Virus record (IMG/VR): IMGVR_UViG_3300031645_000024
Span: 1-21,976 of that record
Length of the DNA stretch: 21,976 bases
Source: a virus
Reading direction: 5' to 3' (one strand)
The position numbers and the translations under genes were made by a program. Below the pieces are notes generated by a model. The model searched no databases, was not told the DNA's origin, and was given only the letters and a program-made list of their open reading frames with translations. Every line of letters starts with the position of its first letter. Within the stretch, counting starts at the first letter, position 1. Positions 11,634 through 18,543 of this stretch are shown piece after piece.

Positions 11634-13490
11634 TTAATTTCCTTTTAATGTTTTAAGTGTGGGCGAATTTTGCAATCTCCCTGTATTTAAACCTGCTGAG
11701 TTCACACCAGTTGCAATTGTAGTTCCTCGGTTTCGCTGAACTTTATTGTATTTTTCTTGTTGTATTTTATTATAAAGATTATTTTCAATTGCTTCTTTAT
11801 AGAATACATTAAGTGAACTAATTTTATTAGCCTCTGGTATAAGTTCATAGTATGTACCGTGTCTATCTTTCCACCCACCTCTAATAATTGCTAAATCATT
11901 ATTTTCTATTACTATATCCCCAAAACTGTCTAAACCTAATTGAGGATCTTCACCTTTCTTTAGGACTATTTTTTTGTTTTCTATTAATACACGCTGGTCT
12001 GTGACTGGGTCAGTTCCATAAACAGGGATAGAATAAAAACCATCTCTAATTGCTTGTTCATTGCGCTCTGATATGAAAAATACATTAACTGAATCTATTC
12101 CATCAACATTTTCTATGATAGAAATAATATCAGATCGAGGTATTCTATCTCTCCTACTTACATTTAAGAAATATTCATTTAAATTTTTTCTTATTTCAAT
12201 TCTAATAGCATCTTTGTCAAAATCTTCAAAATATCTAACAACAACATTCAGTGCATATTTTTGTATAATTGGATCTATAATTCTAGTTTCAGCAGTGACA
12301 ACTTGTCTACCACTTTTATTTAAAATTTCATAAGTCATTTCTTTTTCAGCTGTAGTCATTGAGAATTCAACCTCAGGTACACTGAAATAATCCAAGTCAC
12401 TTGTAAGTTTCTTTTCTACATCAGGAATTAAAAACAAGTAAATAATATTATCATCGTCTAAGTATTGGTCATTCTTAGTATTATAAGCATCTATAAATGA
12501 CCAAAAATCATACTTACTTAAATAGTAAATATAATTATTAGGATTTGCTAATACAAATGAATTACTTTGATACGGTGCAATTAATCTAGTAAATGCAGGA
12601 TCTTCTGTATCAGAACCAAACATCGGGTTTCTTGTAATGTTAAGAGATAAGATTTCATTTAAGTCTACTTGTTCACCAGACGAGTCTGTGCCTGGCGTAG
12701 AAAATTTTATATCTAATTGTTTACCACCAATATTACCAGCATTACCCCTAGTCTTCACATATGTAACTCTAATACGTGAACCTAGAGCAGGTGGCATACC
12801 AAATTGGTTATTCCCAAAGAATACACTAAGTCCACCATTTACACTAGTTTTAATCATTGCAGTTTTTTCACCATTGTTCATATCATACAATGAATCTACC
12901 CTTTTCCATAATTCCCCATCAACAAAAACATCTACTAAATATTGGTCAGTAGGATCCTTTGTTGTTAAATTATAACTTTGTAATGCAAAACCTGATCCTG
13001 TAAAACTTTGTTCATCTTTCTCACCCTGTACTATTTCAACATTAACAAATGATTTTATAGTTTTCTGTAATCGTATAAAGTCACTATTAAATTTTAGAAA
13101 ATAAGTTAAGCCATTCTGACTTATTTCCAATTTTGCACCATTCATAATCTGTATATAATCACCATTAACGAGGCTAGCTGCACTCGTGTTAAGTCGTAAT
13201 CCAATAATACCTCTTGCAGAAATACCTCGTGTTGGGTCATGTCCAGTTAATCTAGACAAACCGTATATAGATTCAATATTCCTTGCTCGTGAAATATTTA
13301 ACTCAGTAAGAGCTGCTTCGATGTAGAAGAAAATCATTTCTCCTAAATTTGACACAACAGTTAATATCTGTCCAAATGGCGATGCCGGTGTGAATACCTC
13401 GACTGCTTGGTCATAAGTACGTGCAAGATATTCAAATGAATCTTCAAATAGCTCTGTTGCTTTTATTCTTGTTTTACTAAAAAATGACAT
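11634..13490 (-). CDS. 6: Baseplate wedge protein gp6-like (baseplate J family, 618 aa)
   Basis: A homologue of T4 gp6 (660 aa), the wedge protein that forms the inner iron-ring of the baseplate, and of the wider gpJ/baseplate-J family. Residues 1-100 form the helical N-terminal part (FGQILTVVSNLGEMIFFYIE, then SRARNIESIYGLSRLTG). Residues 222-256 carry the family core, with FGNNQFGMPPALGSRIRVTY followed by TRGNAGNIGG. Residues 410-475 contain the C-terminal alpha/beta domain (YALNVVVRYFEDFD, then RIPRSDIISIIENVDGIDSV). Residues 500-560 add a domain with GDIVIENNDLAIIRGGW. A basic Gln/Asn-rich tail follows (571-618). It is encoded 13 bases after gp25, its natural partner in the wedge core. 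The leader is A-rich with no Shine-Dalgarno sequence. The assignment is firm at family level. Confidence 0.9.
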   Translation of the reverse strand: MSFFSKTRIKATELFEDSFEYLARTYDQAVEVFTPASPFGQILTVVSNLGEMIFFYIEAALTELNISRARNIESIYGLSRLTGHDPTRGISARGIIGLRLNTSAASLVNGDYIQIMNGAKLEISQNGLTYFLKFNSDFIRLQKTIKSFVNVEIVQGEKDEQSFTGSGFALQSYNLTTKDPTDQYLVDVFVDGELWKRVDSLYDMNNGEKTAMIKTSVNGGLSVFFGNNQFGMPPALGSRIRVTYVKTRGNAGNIGGKQLDIKFSTPGTDSSGEQVDLNEILSLNITRNPMFGSDTEDPAFTRLIAPYQSNSFVLANPNNYIYYLSKYDFWSFIDAYNTKNDQYLDDDNIIYLFLIPDVEKKLTSDLDYFSVPEVEFSMTTAEKEMTYEILNKSGRQVVTAETRIIDPIIQKYALNVVVRYFEDFDKDAIRIEIRKNLNEYFLNVSRRDRIPRSDIISIIENVDGIDSVNVFFISERNEQAIRDGFYSIPVYGTDPVTDQRVLIENKKIVLKKGEDPQLGLDSFGDIVIENNDLAIIRGGWKDRHGTYYELIPEANKISSLNVFYKEAIENNLYNKIQQEKYNKVQRNRGTTIATGVNSAGLNTGRLQNSPTLKTLKGN

Positions 13491-13503: not shown

Positions 13504-13866
13504 TTAAAAAAGTGCGCCCAATACTCTTTGTTCATTAACAAAAATATCAACCAATGCGCCATTTCGTTCTAATGTTGAAAAGAATTGCACCTTTGTGTTA
13601 ACTGTAAAACCATTATATTGCGGTAGGCAGTATGCTGCTATTTGTGCATTGACAGTATTTTGTATTGTACTTTCATTTAATACTATCGAAAATATTAACT
13701 CATCTAAATTACAACCCATACCTGGGGATCCTAATACATCTCCTTTGTTACTAAAAAGAACATTTTCTATTTTTAGAATTAACTGAGATAATTTATCACT
13801 CACTTCCAATGTAGTAGCACTATAGTTAGCCTGAGTGGCATCCCGACTATACATCTCTCTTATCAT
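13504..13866 (-). CDS. 25: Baseplate wedge protein gp25-like (120 aa)
   Basis: A member of the gp25/gpW lysozyme-like fold family (T4 gp25 is 132 aa), which sits in the inner baseplate and helps nucleate sheath polymerisation. The pattern is clear: a helix with KLSQLILKIENVLFSNKGDV, then the conserved turn GSPGMGCNLDELIF (residues 47-60), then a helix IQNTVNAQIAAYCLP and closing beta strands ending VLGALF. The family's usual E-P-R motif near the end of the second helix is replaced by LPQYNGF. The gene immediately precedes gp6, as expected for wedge-core partners. A promoter-like GAATATATAA lies 19 bases upstream, suggesting that a gp25-gp6 transcription unit begins here. The leader holds AGGG eight bases before the ATG, at best a weak ribosome site. 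Confidence 0.9.
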   Translation of the reverse strand: MIREMYSRDATQANYSATTLEVSDKLSQLILKIENVLFSNKGDVLGSPGMGCNLDELIFSIVLNESTIQNTVNAQIAAYCLPQYNGFTVNTKVQFFSTLERNGALVDIFVNEQRVLGALF

Positions 13867-13925: not shown

Positions 13926-14789
13926 TTATCCAGTGAAAAAATAATCAACACCCTCATCATTTTTAATCTCTTCAACTATCCTATCTACCTCTTCTCTACC
14001 TTCGGTTGAAATCATATCATAATTAATAGTAATGTTACCTGGTAGATTAAATGAAAAGGTTCCTAAGATTCTAGCTAATTGAATTTTAGCCTGTCCTATA
14101 CAATATCTAATAAATGCTTCATCACTAAAAAGTGCACAGTCAGGAATAGATGAAAAGATTTCAAAGATAACAGCCTGCTTCGGTAACTCCCCCTGGAATC
14201 TAAACTTTTTTGTTAATCTATTATATGTATATGATATTTGAGGTAATAATACTTGCCTAGCATTATCCATGAATAATGAATTTACTACATAGTACATTAA
14301 ATTTTCACTACCTATACCAGCACCATAAACATCATTATAGATAAACTTATCAATTGAAAAGTCAATATCACCTGCATTAAATCCCATACTACCAAAGCCA
14401 CCATCTTCTCCAGAGAAACCACCAATTTCAAATACAGCATTAACTGAATAAACTCTTGACGGCATTTGTACAACTCCCCTTGGGTTTGCTATTTGGTTTT
14501 TATTGGTTATTGTTTCGTTAGTCTGCCCAGTCCCAAAAGGAACACCTTGCTCAAATGTTGGTTTTGCTAAAGCACCTGCAGGTAAAGCAATATACATCTG
14601 TTCCACACTATCCTCGTATATTTTATAGAAGTAACCTTTTGCTCTATTGATGATATTAGCTAATTCTTTTTTAGGAACGGTAAAAGGAATCTGACAAGCA
14701 ATAGTTAGCTCCTCGTTAATTTCTTTAATTAATTCATCCAAGCATGCTGCTTCTGCAGGATCATTACAATAAGTATTTGTATTCGCCAT
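13926..14789 (-). CDS. Probable neck protein, gp13-like (287 aa)
   Basis: A 287-residue protein close in size to T4 gp13 (309 aa), the neck protein that joins head to tail. The N-terminal part has a helix that follows FTVPKKELANIINRAKGYFY (residues 36-55). Residues 100-140 are Gly-rich (GGFSGEDGGFGSMGF). The C-terminal part resembles what I recall of neck proteins of marine T4-like phages: a helix with FIRYCIGQAKIQLARILGTF (226-245), then LPGNITINYDMISTEG and a final acidic helix ending FFTG. The similarity is from memory, without alignment, so the assignment is moderate; another connector or adaptor is possible. It lies seven bases downstream of the amidoligase start-to-stop unit, with no Shine-Dalgarno sequence in its leader. 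Its place between the amidoligase and gp25 means neck and wedge genes are adjoining here. Confidence 0.55.
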   Translation of the reverse strand: MANTNTYCNDPAEAACLDELIKEINEELTIACQIPFTVPKKELANIINRAKGYFYKIYEDSVEQMYIALPAGALAKPTFEQGVPFGTGQTNETITNKNQIANPRGVVQMPSRVYSVNAVFEIGGFSGEDGGFGSMGFNAGDIDFSIDKFIYNDVYGAGIGSENLMYYVVNSLFMDNARQVLLPQISYTYNRLTKKFRFQGELPKQAVIFEIFSSIPDCALFSDEAFIRYCIGQAKIQLARILGTFSFNLPGNITINYDMISTEGREEVDRIVEEIKNDEGVDYFFTG

Positions 14790-14795
14790 GTTATT

Positions 14796-16088
14796 TTATA
14801 TTTTTTCTATTTCAATAATTTCAGTATTTTCAAATCTTGCAAAATCTGTTGCTCTACCCTTTCTGAATATACCTCCATCCATTTCTCCACTAAATACTCC
14901 TCTAACACCAAAGACATAAGAATCTTTAACAGCTACATTTTTACTTACATATGAATCCTCTATTTTAGAATCAACAACATCAGTTGCCCCAAATAGATTG
15001 CACTCAGTCATTGAAGAATTAATTAATTCAGTACTAAATATATCACAGCCTATAATATTACCTTGAATTTTAGAATCAACAATATCAATACCTCGTATTT
15101 CAAAACATTTCATTAGTTCAGCATTTTTAAGCTGCATCCTACCAGTATCAGAATCATAATTAATTAAACCTTCACTTAGTCCTGCTTTAGTTAGTAGTTC
15201 AAATATTTTCTCTCTCATTTTAGGATAATAAGTTTCTACTATTTGATCATAAGTTTTCAAATCAACCATTAATTTAACCTTAGGAAATTTTCTTCTAAAT
15301 GTTCGGTAAGCTTTGTAAGATTCTACAATACCTTTATGCTTTTCTAATATAACATCTAATTTCTTAATATCTTCCGCATTATAAGCTGGATCAATTAAAC
15401 TTTCATATAGAGATAAAACAAAATGTTCCGTCATAGACATTATAGTGTTATATTTCTTTTCATAATCTTTACCACCTAAATATCTAAACTCGATATAATT
15501 CTTAGGTATCTTAGAAAAGTTTACACCGTAATATTTTTCAGTCACAAACATATAGTTCTTCCATGAAATTCTTTCAGGAGAAGGCTGTGTCATACCACTT
15601 AATGGTACAATAAATTTTATAGATTTAGCATAAACAGAATCTCTCCTGTTAGGAAAGGCTTCATAGACTGCTTTCTCATTGAAGTTAAGAACAAACTTGC
15701 CGATGTCTAAAGATGATACATTTGTAGGGGTTCCCAATTTCTTGCCATCAAATGCAACATTTATATGAATAGAGCATCGTTCATTAGTAGATCCATTTTC
15801 CCTAATCCACTTTAAAGTTTTTGCTATAATTAGTTTTGATTCAACAAAAGGCATTGGTCCTGTTACTAATTCAATCATACCAGATCCACCAGAATTATCT
15901 GGTTCTAATTTGAAGATTTCATCACTAGGTATAAAGTCACTATGGGCCTTTTCTTCGACTCGTATTTGTTTATTTAGAGTTTGGGATAAGCTTCTTTTAA
16001 CTTCATCCATTCCCTCATTGGCAAAGAATTCAAATTCTAAACCAATCTTTGACGCATATATAGCATTTAGCTGTTCGTTAGTGTACAT
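14796..16088 (-). CDS. Amidoligase (glutamine-synthetase-like fold) fused to a C-terminal beta-solenoid-like repeat (430 aa)
   Basis: The N-terminal 230 residues fit the amidoligase family (Amidoligase_2, COOH-NH2 ligases with a glutamine-synthetase-like fold), which join a carboxylate to an amine using ATP. Motifs in order: GLEFEF at 16-21 (metal-binding glutamates E18 and E20), K60 with EPDNSGGSG and IELVTGPMP (D64, E73), CSIHINV at 105-111 (H108), an Arg pair at 148-149, and IEFRYLGG at 199-206 (E200, R202). Residues 235-305 are helical. Residues about 331-410 form short repeats such as IVDSKIQGN and VVDSKIEDS, like a pentapeptide or hexapeptide-type beta-solenoid. The gene has its own promoter-like box 16 bases upstream and an AGGA leader. 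The substrate is unknown; cell-wall or virion-protein modification are both possible. The family call is from motif reading. Confidence 0.8.
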   Translation of the reverse strand: MYTNEQLNAIYASKIGLEFEFFANEGMDEVKRSLSQTLNKQIRVEEKAHSDFIPSDEIFKLEPDNSGGSGMIELVTGPMPFVESKLIIAKTLKWIRENGSTNERCSIHINVAFDGKKLGTPTNVSSLDIGKFVLNFNEKAVYEAFPNRRDSVYAKSIKFIVPLSGMTQPSPERISWKNYMFVTEKYYGVNFSKIPKNYIEFRYLGGKDYEKKYNTIMSMTEHFVLSLYESLIDPAYNAEDIKKLDVILEKHKGIVESYKAYRTFRRKFPKVKLMVDLKTYDQIVETYYPKMREKIFELLTKAGLSEGLINYDSDTGRMQLKNAELMKCFEIRGIDIVDSKIQGNIIGCDIFSTELINSSMTECNLFGATDVVDSKIEDSYVSKNVAVKDSYVFGVRGVFSGEMDGGIFRKGRATDFARFENTEIIEIEKI

Positions 16089-16130: not shown

Positions 16131-17270
16131 TTATGCTATGTTCATAGTAATCTTACGATCACTAACATTTACACTACCAATTTTAATATTGATAACATCG
16201 CCCTTGGTTAGATTAGCATCTTTTAGTTTAGATTTATGGATTAAACCACTAATTCCTTTTTCAAGTTCAACGAATGCACCGTATGAAGTTATTTTTGTAA
16301 CTTTGCCTTCAGTGACCATCATAGGTTTATATTTTTCGTCTATACCATCCCACAGATCAACTTTAGGCCCTAATTGACTTAATATAATCTTCTTGTCTGA
16401 AATTATTTCTTTTGCCCAGAATTCTATTTCATCACCTGCTTTAATATCTCTATTATCTAAAGCTTCTTGCATTTTATTAGTTAATTCAGCTCGAGGTATT
16501 AAACCAGTTAAGCAATCATCAAACTGAGCAAATACACCAAACTTAGTTATACCTGTTACAAAACCAACCCTAGGTTCTTTTATAGTTTCATCCAATTCAT
16601 AAATCCTAGTAGGTATCATTGTCCTTAGATATTCTCTGTGAGATACTACAATAGTAGATTTATCTTTTGAGTAGGTAATTGGCATTACAATAATATCTTT
16701 ACCTACTAATGAATTAAAATCATGTAGTTTATTTAGACCCCCTAGAGAACCTGGCATGAAGCAAGTAATACCTGCAACATCAACCCAATAACCACCGTGT
16801 ATTAATTCTTTAACATTAGCAGTAAATCCAACTGACTTATTACCAATAGCATCCATAATTTCTTTTAACTTAATATCCATCAATGCATCATTAATAGAAG
16901 CAATAACATCACCAGTTTTTGTAGTTTTAATCTTAACTTCGATTTCCATACCAACCTGCATCTGTTCAACAATATACTCTGGTTCTTTTATTAAATTACA
17001 ACTTGCAGTATGTTTAGAATTAGTATCAATAGTTGCTCTTGTTCTATCAGGTGAGATATAAGTAATTTCTCCTAATGTAGTATAAGATACATTGTCTTCG
17101 GTTAATTTGGTTTTAGTTAAAGCAGAATCTGAAAGTTCATACATTGATAAAGCATCAGCAGCATAAGATTCATTACTTAGTAGTTTTGTTCCAAGTGGAA
17201 CTTGTACTTTTACTATTTTAACATCAAATGGATCGTCACTTAATTGAATTGTGATTTCTTGCTCTGTCAT
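16131..17270 (-). CDS. S1-domain RNA-binding protein with four S1 repeats, ribosomal protein S1-like (379 aa)
   Basis: A cytoplasmic RNA-binding protein. After a unique 60-residue N-terminus come four OB-fold S1 domains. The first, about 62-128, is degenerate. The second is 145-211 and contains GGYWVDVAGITCFMPGS and a VSHREYL end. The third is 233-299 (GFVTGITKFGVFAQFDD, then LTGLIPRAEL). The fourth is 318-379 (GKVTKITSYGAFVELEKGIS, then GLIHKSKL). Cellular S1 usually has up to six domains, the first two of which dock on the ribosome; here the N-terminus is different. It could bind phage mRNAs and help initiation without Shine-Dalgarno pairing, or act as an RNA chaperone or antiterminator. 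It has its own promoter-like box 30 bases upstream and a leader of AAAATAAAAAAA. The family call is firm; the role is inferred. Confidence 0.9.
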   Translation of the reverse strand: MTEQEITIQLSDDPFDVKIVKVQVPLGTKLLSNESYAADALSMYELSDSALTKTKLTEDNVSYTTLGEITYISPDRTRATIDTNSKHTASCNLIKEPEYIVEQMQVGMEIEVKIKTTKTGDVIASINDALMDIKLKEIMDAIGNKSVGFTANVKELIHGGYWVDVAGITCFMPGSLGGLNKLHDFNSLVGKDIIVMPITYSKDKSTIVVSHREYLRTMIPTRIYELDETIKEPRVGFVTGITKFGVFAQFDDCLTGLIPRAELTNKMQEALDNRDIKAGDEIEFWAKEIISDKKIILSQLGPKVDLWDGIDEKYKPMMVTEGKVTKITSYGAFVELEKGISGLIHKSKLKDANLTKGDVINIKIGSVNVSDRKITMNIA

Positions 17271-17382: not shown

Positions 17383-17622
17383 TTATGTAACTGCACCAAC
17401 ACCAGGCCCAGCAGGTGTGGTAGTCTGAACTAAACCACTTTTAACAAAGACATCAATAGCTATTGAAGCATCTACTCCGAATACCTCACCGGCCGCAGTT
17501 GTTGCTGCATCAAATTTATCAACCCCTGCATTACCAGTTTGGTCAAAATCTCTATATACTTTCATCGCATTAATGAATGCTACTGTTAGCTCTGCTTTTA
17601 ATGCTGGTGTTGCTAATGGCAT
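17383..17622 (-). CDS. Small unknown protein following the spike gene (79 aa)
   Basis: A 79-residue protein, MPLATPALKAELTVAFINAM onward. The first two thirds are Ala-rich and helical. The end has IDVFVKSGLVQTTT followed by the flexible tail PAGPGVGAVT. Small proteins with an I-D-V-x-V-K-S-G type motif and a Gly/Thr tail occur near spike genes in other contractile phages, as I recall, but I cannot name a family. There is no signal peptide or membrane span. The gene starts 30 bases after the spike stop, with a promoter-like AAATATATAA 21 bases upstream overlapping that stop. It is followed by a 112-base gap. A spike-associated assembly role is possible, by position only. Confidence 0.65.
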   Translation of the reverse strand: MPLATPALKAELTVAFINAMKVYRDFDQTGNAGVDKFDAATTAAGEVFGVDASIAIDVFVKSGLVQTTTPAGPGVGAVT

Positions 17623-17643: not shown

Positions 17644-17653
17644 TTATATATTT
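17644..17653 (-). promoter_or_regulatory. Candidate promoter-like box upstream of the 79-aa gene
   Basis: The minus strand reads AAATATATAA, nine of ten bases identical to the GAATATATAA motif, 21 bases before the ATG at 17622. It touches the last base of the spike stop codon. Spacing agrees with the exact copies, so it is probably functional, but the AT-rich background lowers certainty. Confidence 0.4.
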
Positions 17654-18543
17654 TAGAGTGACTTAACTTGTTTCTGGCTTAATTCATTAGGAGTCATTGG
17701 TTTAGTTGGTGGACTTGTTGGTGCTCCTAGATTTCCAATGTGTGTATGTGCATTAAATAAGGCTGTCATTTTATCACCCAACACAATCTTCTCAACAGCA
17801 CCTTCTCCTAATTCAATTGAAGAAGAATGATTAATAATAGTATTCTCGCAATTGACAATAGCATCCACACAATTTATTTCTGTATTAGCTCCACTGTTAA
17901 TAGTAAATTGAGCAGAGTGAGTAAATGTTATATTTCCATCATTAAGCATTACAATAGTATCACCATTAGCATTAATTACTTCAACAGAATTATCAGGTTT
18001 TATATTAATAGTGGTTGGTCCAGTTGATGTTGTATAATCCATCATTAAGCCTTTCTCTTCTGTAAAAAAAACTTTGACACTTTCACCTTCTCTATCATTT
18101 GTTACTTCAGTACCATTCTCCCCACCTGTTAAACCAAATGCAGTGTCATAAATAAGTACGTGTGAATTTTGGTATGATGCTTCTATCTCAGCTTTAGTTT
18201 CATCTGAAGGATACATGTTTTCATGATAGACTGGTTGGTAAAAGTTTCCGTTATCAAAAGTCATTCTAACAATAGATCCTAATTTTGGTATTTCAAATTT
18301 ACCACTACCAGTATTACTACCACCATACATTAGTTGATGAGGCCTAGCCCATGGCAATGCAAGTGTAGGAATCTTATATTCACTCTCAGGATCTTCAGGA
18401 TCAACCCTATCATCCATCTTTCCATATACTCTTATCTTACATCGCCCCTCGAAGATATCATCAGCAGTATCTTCAACTATTCCTACCCACTGAGTAGTTC
18501 TTAAATCATCTGCATTAAAATTTGCTGGATTTACTTTTCCCAT
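17653..18543 (-). CDS. Baseplate spike protein, gp5/gpV-like, OB fold plus beta-helix, no lysozyme domain (296 aa)
   Basis: The membrane-piercing spike at the centre of the baseplate. Residues about 18-110 form an OB fold (WVGIVEDTADDIFEGRCKIR, then PKLGSIVRMTFDNGNFYQPV). Residues 150-250 are short repeating strands (INIKPDNSVEVINANGDTIV, then ITFTHSAQFTINSG), consistent with a trimeric beta-helix. Residues 254-280 hold VLGDKMTALFNAHTHIG and a Pro-rich PTSPPTKPM stretch, a C-terminal pattern seen in many phage spikes. T4 gp5 carries a lysozyme domain between the OB fold and the helix; here the two are nearly contiguous, so it is absent. The start codon overlaps the preceding stop by one base (TAATG), which implies translational coupling to the 477-residue gene. 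There is no Shine-Dalgarno sequence near the start. Confidence 0.88.
   Translation of the reverse strand: MGKVNPANFNADDLRTTQWVGIVEDTADDIFEGRCKIRVYGKMDDRVDPEDPESEYKIPTLALPWARPHQLMYGGSNTGSGKFEIPKLGSIVRMTFDNGNFYQPVYHENMYPSDETKAEIEASYQNSHVLIYDTAFGLTGGENGTEVTNDREGESVKVFFTEEKGLMMDYTTSTGPTTINIKPDNSVEVINANGDTIVMLNDGNITFTHSAQFTINSGANTEINCVDAIVNCENTIINHSSSIELGEGAVEKIVLGDKMTALFNAHTHIGNLGAPTSPPTKPMTPNELSQKQVKSL

Follow-up and report, generated by a model that had tools for sequence, protein, structure and literature searches.

An apparent amidoligase fused to a pentapeptide-like solenoid, linked to tail genes in large and huge phages

What might an enzyme that forms amide bonds be doing in the middle of a phage baseplate gene cluster? 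The question is raised by one gene of a 21,976-base virus record of environmental origin (the window, here and below), whose phage, if it is like its relative L023, would have a genome of at least 180 kb. The gene occupies positions 14796..16088 of the minus strand, as do all window features given below, with the ATG at 16088 and the stop codon at 14796-14798, and it encodes a protein of 430 aa, exactly the open reading frame that the original prediction had described as an amidoligase fused to a beta-solenoid-like tail. The gene as a whole is supported by its open reading frame, its homologues, an AlphaFold2 model, and a dN/dS ratio of about 0.10. Its product divides into a ligase domain with the glutamine-synthetase fold, i.e., that of carboxylate-amine ligases (residues 1–232, 15393..16088; matches to Pfam in relatives, hhalign, Foldseek), a helical linker joining the ligase to the solenoid (residues 233–300, 15189..15392; DSSP of the model), and a pentapeptide-like, putatively right-handed beta-solenoid with a C-terminal cap (residues 301–430, 14799..15188; strand spacing, Pfam, Foldseek). 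The ligase domain and the solenoid (dN/dS 0.07 and 0.12, respectively) are both under purifying selection comparable to that on the adjoining Ad2-like gene (0.09), and hence the solenoid is a working part of the protein; the linker, at 0.18, is under the weakest constraint.

The window protein alone does not reveal its family. It had no significant match in Pfam, PHROG-amidoligase, or NCBIfam scans, and thus standard annotation of the window sequence would miss the amidoligase, and homologues were required to demonstrate family membership. A PDB sequence search with the window protein returned weak pentapeptide matches only, the ligase not being recovered, and no phage matched the whole window by megablast. 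Homologues were gathered from annotated phages and from IMG/VR. Among 20 relatives, nine give some match to Pfam Amidoligase_2 (PF12224), and two that were scanned singly exceed its gathering score of 22, namely, L062 (24.6 bits) and gp196 of Agrobacterium phage Atu_ph07 (30.2 bits); PHROG 2443, "amidoligase enzyme", is matched by two relatives. Alignment by hhalign of the window family with four undisputed Amidoligase_2 proteins from phages (145–235 bits each), taken as the reference, covers 233 columns with a probability of 96% and E=3.2e-9, the motifs being in register. Hence the Pfam comparison proposed with the original prediction, which misses the window protein itself, succeeds at the level of its relatives. 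A PF12224 search over whole viral records recovered Atu_ph07 only, so this profile is too insensitive for the present branch. We are close to certain that the protein is an amidoligase-solenoid fusion.

The ordered amidoligase motifs named in the original prediction can be read directly from the sequence. These are G16-x-E18-x-E20 (GLEFE, 16029..16043), whose place in the order is that of the first metal-ligand strand in glutamine synthetase; D64-x-S66 (DNS, 15891..15899) and E73 within E-L-V-T-G-P (15870..15872), aligned, respectively, with D279-x-S281 and E288 of the bona fide amidoligase L187; H108-x-N110 (HIN, 15759..15767), to be compared with H323-x-H325 in the bona fide amidoligases that were aligned; and E200-F-R202 (15483..15491), aligned with E436-x-R438 of L187. 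All ten residues, G16, E18, E20, D64, S66, E73, H108, N110, E200, and R202, are invariant in an alignment of 39 homologues reaching down to 23% identity. This invariance, together with the relatives that pass the Amidoligase_2 cut-off and the hhalign E-value, places the motifs beyond chance. Their order matches that of the metal and phosphate ligands E129/E131, E212/E220, H269, and E357/R359 of glutamine synthetase, to which we presume they correspond residue by residue. The sole systematic departure from bona fide amidoligases is the asparagine that replaces the second histidine of H-x-H throughout the family, and for this reason activity is not guaranteed; still, we predict with considerable confidence that the protein is an active ligase.

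The AlphaFold2 model, built on an IMG/VR alignment (mean pLDDT 90.7, pTM 0.82), contains both the glutamine-synthetase-like core and the solenoid, the two elements on which the original prediction had depended. In a Foldseek comparison with the PDB, glutamine synthetases rank first (E=3.2e-5; e.g., 8fbp), and the lower ranks include a bifunctional glutathione synthetase and the pentapeptide-repeat protein 6fls, while a fusion of ligase and solenoid folds was not present among the PDB matches found. Among viral models, Foldseek retrieves many entries named "Amidoligase enzyme", including that of Atu_ph07. The fold and the active site are both well supported.

The modelled solenoid is specifically pentapeptide-repeat-like. 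Three-residue strands lie at residues 335, 340, 349, 354, 359, 364, 370, and 375, i.e., at a spacing of five residues, and the same five-residue strand spacing appears in a separate model of the relative L149 (33% identity, pLDDT 81.9). Profile comparison yields weak matches of the solenoid to solved pentapeptide proteins, e.g., MfpA. Among relatives, Pentapeptide_4 gives an E-value of 5.6e-6 at best; the highest scores are those of L066, 26.8 bits for Pentapeptide_4 against a curated cut-off of 38, and 17.3 for Pentapeptide (PF00805) against a cut-off of 20.2; since these matches fall below the curated cut-offs, we use the name "pentapeptide-like". By analogy with the pentapeptide family, the solenoid would be right-handed and four-sided. 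The repeats of the original prediction therefore stand, being present in two models, whereas its estimate of 80 residues was too short, the solenoid extending over approximately 110–130 residues (about 315–425).

The presence of glutamine synthetases and of the bifunctional glutathione synthetase among the structural matches would agree with the synthesis of a small molecule, or with the addition of an amino acid to a non-protein metabolite to give, e.g., a gamma-glutamyl compound. Metabolite synthesis was reportedly proposed for some amidoligases by Iyer et al. in 2009. On the other hand, the pentapeptide-like solenoid to which the ligase is fused suggests that a macromolecule is bound, the ligase gene has no pathway genes beside it, and its position is fixed within the tail cluster. 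We consider this explanation decidedly unlikely.

The surrounding genes include members of baseplate and head-tail adaptor families. Directly downstream lies the gene for an Ad2-like head-tail adaptor protein of 287 aa (13926..14789; PHROG 211, E=3.6e-12), beyond which are a gp25-like baseplate wedge gene (13504-13866; a weak match to PHROG 43, E=0.043) and a gp6-like baseplate wedge gene (11634-13490; PHROG 219, E=4e-27). Directly upstream is the gene for a ribosomal-protein-S1-like protein of 379 aa with several S1 domains (16131..17270; Pfam S1, E=4e-18, and NCBIfam S1 matches), and farther upstream a gp5-like baseplate hub/spike gene (17653..18543; PHROG 37871, E=1.5e-14, and PHROG 430, E=2.6e-10). 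Synteny was counted for 75 distinct homologues with identity of at least 40%. The Ad2-like gene directly follows the ligase gene, with a gap of 1–9 bp, in 74 of the 75, and the S1-like gene directly precedes it in 65 of the 69 relatives with sequence there; in four it lies at a distance of one to three ORFs. The same gene order, with extra genes interspersed, is found in the 462-kb phage LR756500. The baseplate setting is thus borne out both by the PHROG matches of the neighbours and by the survey of gene neighbourhoods that had been recommended. It had been called unusual for an amidoligase; the setting is real, yet this is no one-off insertion but a standard gene in a broad group of large phages.

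Two further features of the cluster were observed. The slot between the gp5-like and S1-like genes (17383-17622 in the window) is occupied across relatives by differing small ORFs of 79 to 189 aa, those of L001, L046, L135, L139, L143, and L180 being mostly without similarity to the ORF of the window, which gives the slot the look of a variable site. The Ad2-like protein has an acidic C-terminus, approximately DEGVDYFFT[GAS], that is strongly conserved across the clade. On inspection of the C-termini of the neighbouring tail proteins, we considered this segment (about DEGVDYFFTG) as a tag-like acceptor and set the idea aside, as structure could explain the conservation equally well.

The S1-like gene itself suggests another role, in which the ligase, acting with the S1-like protein, would modify the translation machinery, e.g., by tagging of a ribosomal protein in the way that RimK adds glutamates to S6. 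The adjacency of the two genes in most relatives of the window clade speaks for such a role, and S1-domain proteins are known to be carried by huge phages (PMC7162821). But the S1-like gene lies about 78 kb from the ligase gene in a 508-kb record, several partial records show none, and the two genes are not adjacent in the distant group of huge phages. A role in translation is accordingly regarded as highly unlikely.

The linkage to tail genes extends far beyond the window clade. An alignment-based scan identified at least 567 viral stretches that encode relatives. Complete phage genomes of 634, 636, 642, and 735 kb were reported by Al-Shayeb et al. (PMC7162821), and the records that match them in length all carry the amidoligase gene (4/4). 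The homologues in LR756500-LR756504 and LR745206 (462–735 kb) are 29–42% identical to the window protein over nearly the full length, have the same two-domain architecture, and are unannotated in their records; most adjoin tail genes. An exception is the 735-kb phage, in which the surroundings of the ligase gene are free of recognised tail genes to a distance of about 9 kb. The gene order in the 634–735-kb phages is unlike that in the window, a DHH-type protein often being encoded downstream. In a second clade, to which the 634- and 642-kb phages belong, the ligase gene adjoins the opposite flank of the tail block. Next to it are a 129-aa gene, a 606-aa gene whose homologue in the window clade lies upstream (E=2e-32), and a gene homologous to the 125-aa gene of the window (E=7e-18); the three are oriented divergently from the ligase gene, and in L171 they share its direction. 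In most of these rearranged huge-phage relatives, often with the opposite orientation, the ligase gene still flanks the hub/baseplate block, composed of homologues of the window's 125-, 495-, 477-aa, and gp5-like genes. Hence the linkage has survived both rearrangement and inversion.

Additional observations concern individual relatives. In the second huge-phage clade, the ligase is adjoined by a protein of 470–760 aa that weakly matches DHH-phosphoesterase and winged-helix families (L065, 13823-15814; L064, 13817-16093, and related loci) and, on its other side, by a highly conserved 129-aa protein. The 129-, 130-, and 231-aa genes near Mahaphage-type copies were compared with the gp25-like and Ad2-like genes and do not convincingly correspond to them. 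Salicola phage SCTP-2 encodes two adjacent large proteins, gp125 and gp124 (L185, 8924-12684; PHROG 33777), annotated only as hypothetical, each of which has a ligase-related region.

Cellular genomes almost entirely lack the family. Among approximately 85,000 bacterial and archaeal genomes, only two relatives were found, both on metagenome-assembled contigs, L195 (JAJFLM010000187.1) and L196 (CAIWBA010000291.1), filed under Deltaproteobacteria and Bacteroidetes. The former has the gene order of the phages (S1-like, ligase, Ad2-like, gp25-like, gp6-like), and thus is very probably phage DNA, probably in a mis-binned contig.

Location among structural genes is also what would be expected of a virion structural protein that had kept the fold and lost the activity. 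In this respect, Atu_ph07 gp196 falls within CDS 170-215, a range in which many genes encode proteins that mass spectrometry detected in virions (PMC6102473). In its main text, however, the paper is silent on the detection of gp196, and the full set of metal- and ATP-binding residues, needless for a purely structural role, is invariant over large divergence. A purely structural protein is very improbable.

A role in the host cell wall has a published precedent. Modification of peptidoglycan has been proposed for the amidoligases of phiEco32/LUZ24/RIO-1-type phages (PMC5498523, PMC10580990), and ligases of this kind have natural substrates in the carboxylates of the wall; here, an amide or a peptide would be added to peptidoglycan precursors late in infection, blocking superinfection or controlling lysis. 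Phages of the phiEco32, RIO-1, and LUZ24 types, however, carry a cassette that also encodes a gamma-glutamyl cyclotransferase, a glutamine amidotransferase, and further ligases. We searched 11 related viral records, mostly partial but including three of 429, 490, and 508 kb, and obtained no match to GGACT (PF06094), AIG2_2 (PF13772), or GATase_6 (PF13522) in any of them. The second COOH-NH2 ligase (PF14395) had no match in the relatives, the control set being equally without a match. The failure to find the usual partner enzymes in these relatives, and the linkage of the ligase gene to tail genes rather than to an early cassette, weaken the peptidoglycan explanation; moreover, neither a signal nor a membrane segment was apparent on reading the sequence. 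We regard it as unlikely.

We tentatively favor the modification of virion proteins, giving somewhat less than an even chance to the reading as a whole, that is, a late, catalytically competent, solenoid-docked amidoligase whose target is a tail, baseplate, or assembly protein of the phage. The ligase would be an ATP-dependent carboxylate-amine ligase of the Amidoligase_2/glutamine-synthetase-like superfamily, expressed late together with the tail genes. Its ring of glutamate, aspartate, and histidine residues would bind metal ions and ATP, and, as expected from the family, a carboxylate would be activated to an acyl phosphate, with subsequent attack by an amine yielding an amide bond. The pentapeptide-like solenoid may act as a docking or dimerisation module, and the tail, baseplate, or assembly protein that it engages would be modified or joined in the course of virion assembly. 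That the target is indeed a virion or assembly protein is in itself possible, if short of probable: gene linkage can arise from shared expression timing and need not indicate a physical partner, and the S1-like neighbour in the window clade shows that non-structural genes also reside within the cluster. The broader proposition, that big phages, the largest included, place covalent amide bonds into their own tail or baseplate proteins by means of a dedicated solenoid-docked amidoligase, is doubtful; enzymatic modification of virion proteins of this type had no description in the literature searched.

Amidoligases are well known and common in phages, and the Atu_ph07 protein already bears this name. 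In a partial literature search, we found no description of a solenoid-fused amidoligase or of its constant association with tail genes in huge phages, and no demonstrated role for any phage amidoligase within the literature searched. The solenoid form is found widely within one viral group, with one fixed set of genomic partners, and it is present in each of the four largest complete phage genomes described in 2020 (records matched in length). A concrete question can now be asked, namely, which tail protein, if any, bears an amide bond made by this enzyme. If virion proteins are modified, this would be an assembly step without known precedent in tailed phages in the literature searched; if they are not, the gene would point to a host component that large phages need modified late in infection.

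Compared with known systems, the window protein resembles glutamine synthetase in the ligase core, with a whole-chain TM-score of only about 0.3, which limits the claim to the same fold class rather than to glutamine synthetase itself, and pentapeptide-repeat proteins (MfpA, 6zt4, and PDB 6fls) in the solenoid. The BFVD model A0A6J5PQ40, an uncharacterised protein of an uncultured Caudovirales phage, matches it over the full length, with TM-scores of 0.92 and 0.90 at 24% identity. Gp196 of Atu_ph07 (A0A2L0UZM1, "Amidoligase enzyme") has the same motifs at about 23% identity, matches in structure, and is encoded near the portal gene in a region rich in virion genes; it differs in having no solenoid, in its divergent N-terminal extension, and in its location outside a baseplate operon. 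Finally, the Amidoligase_2 members of Christensenellales, Porphyromonas, and LUZ24-like phages share the predicted fold and have GxExE, DxS, E-x-V, H, and ExR in register with the window family, whereas the latter, at about 17% identity, has asparagine for the second histidine of HxH, lies in a tail cluster, has neither a cyclotransferase nor an amidotransferase as partner, and carries the C-terminal pentapeptide-like solenoid.
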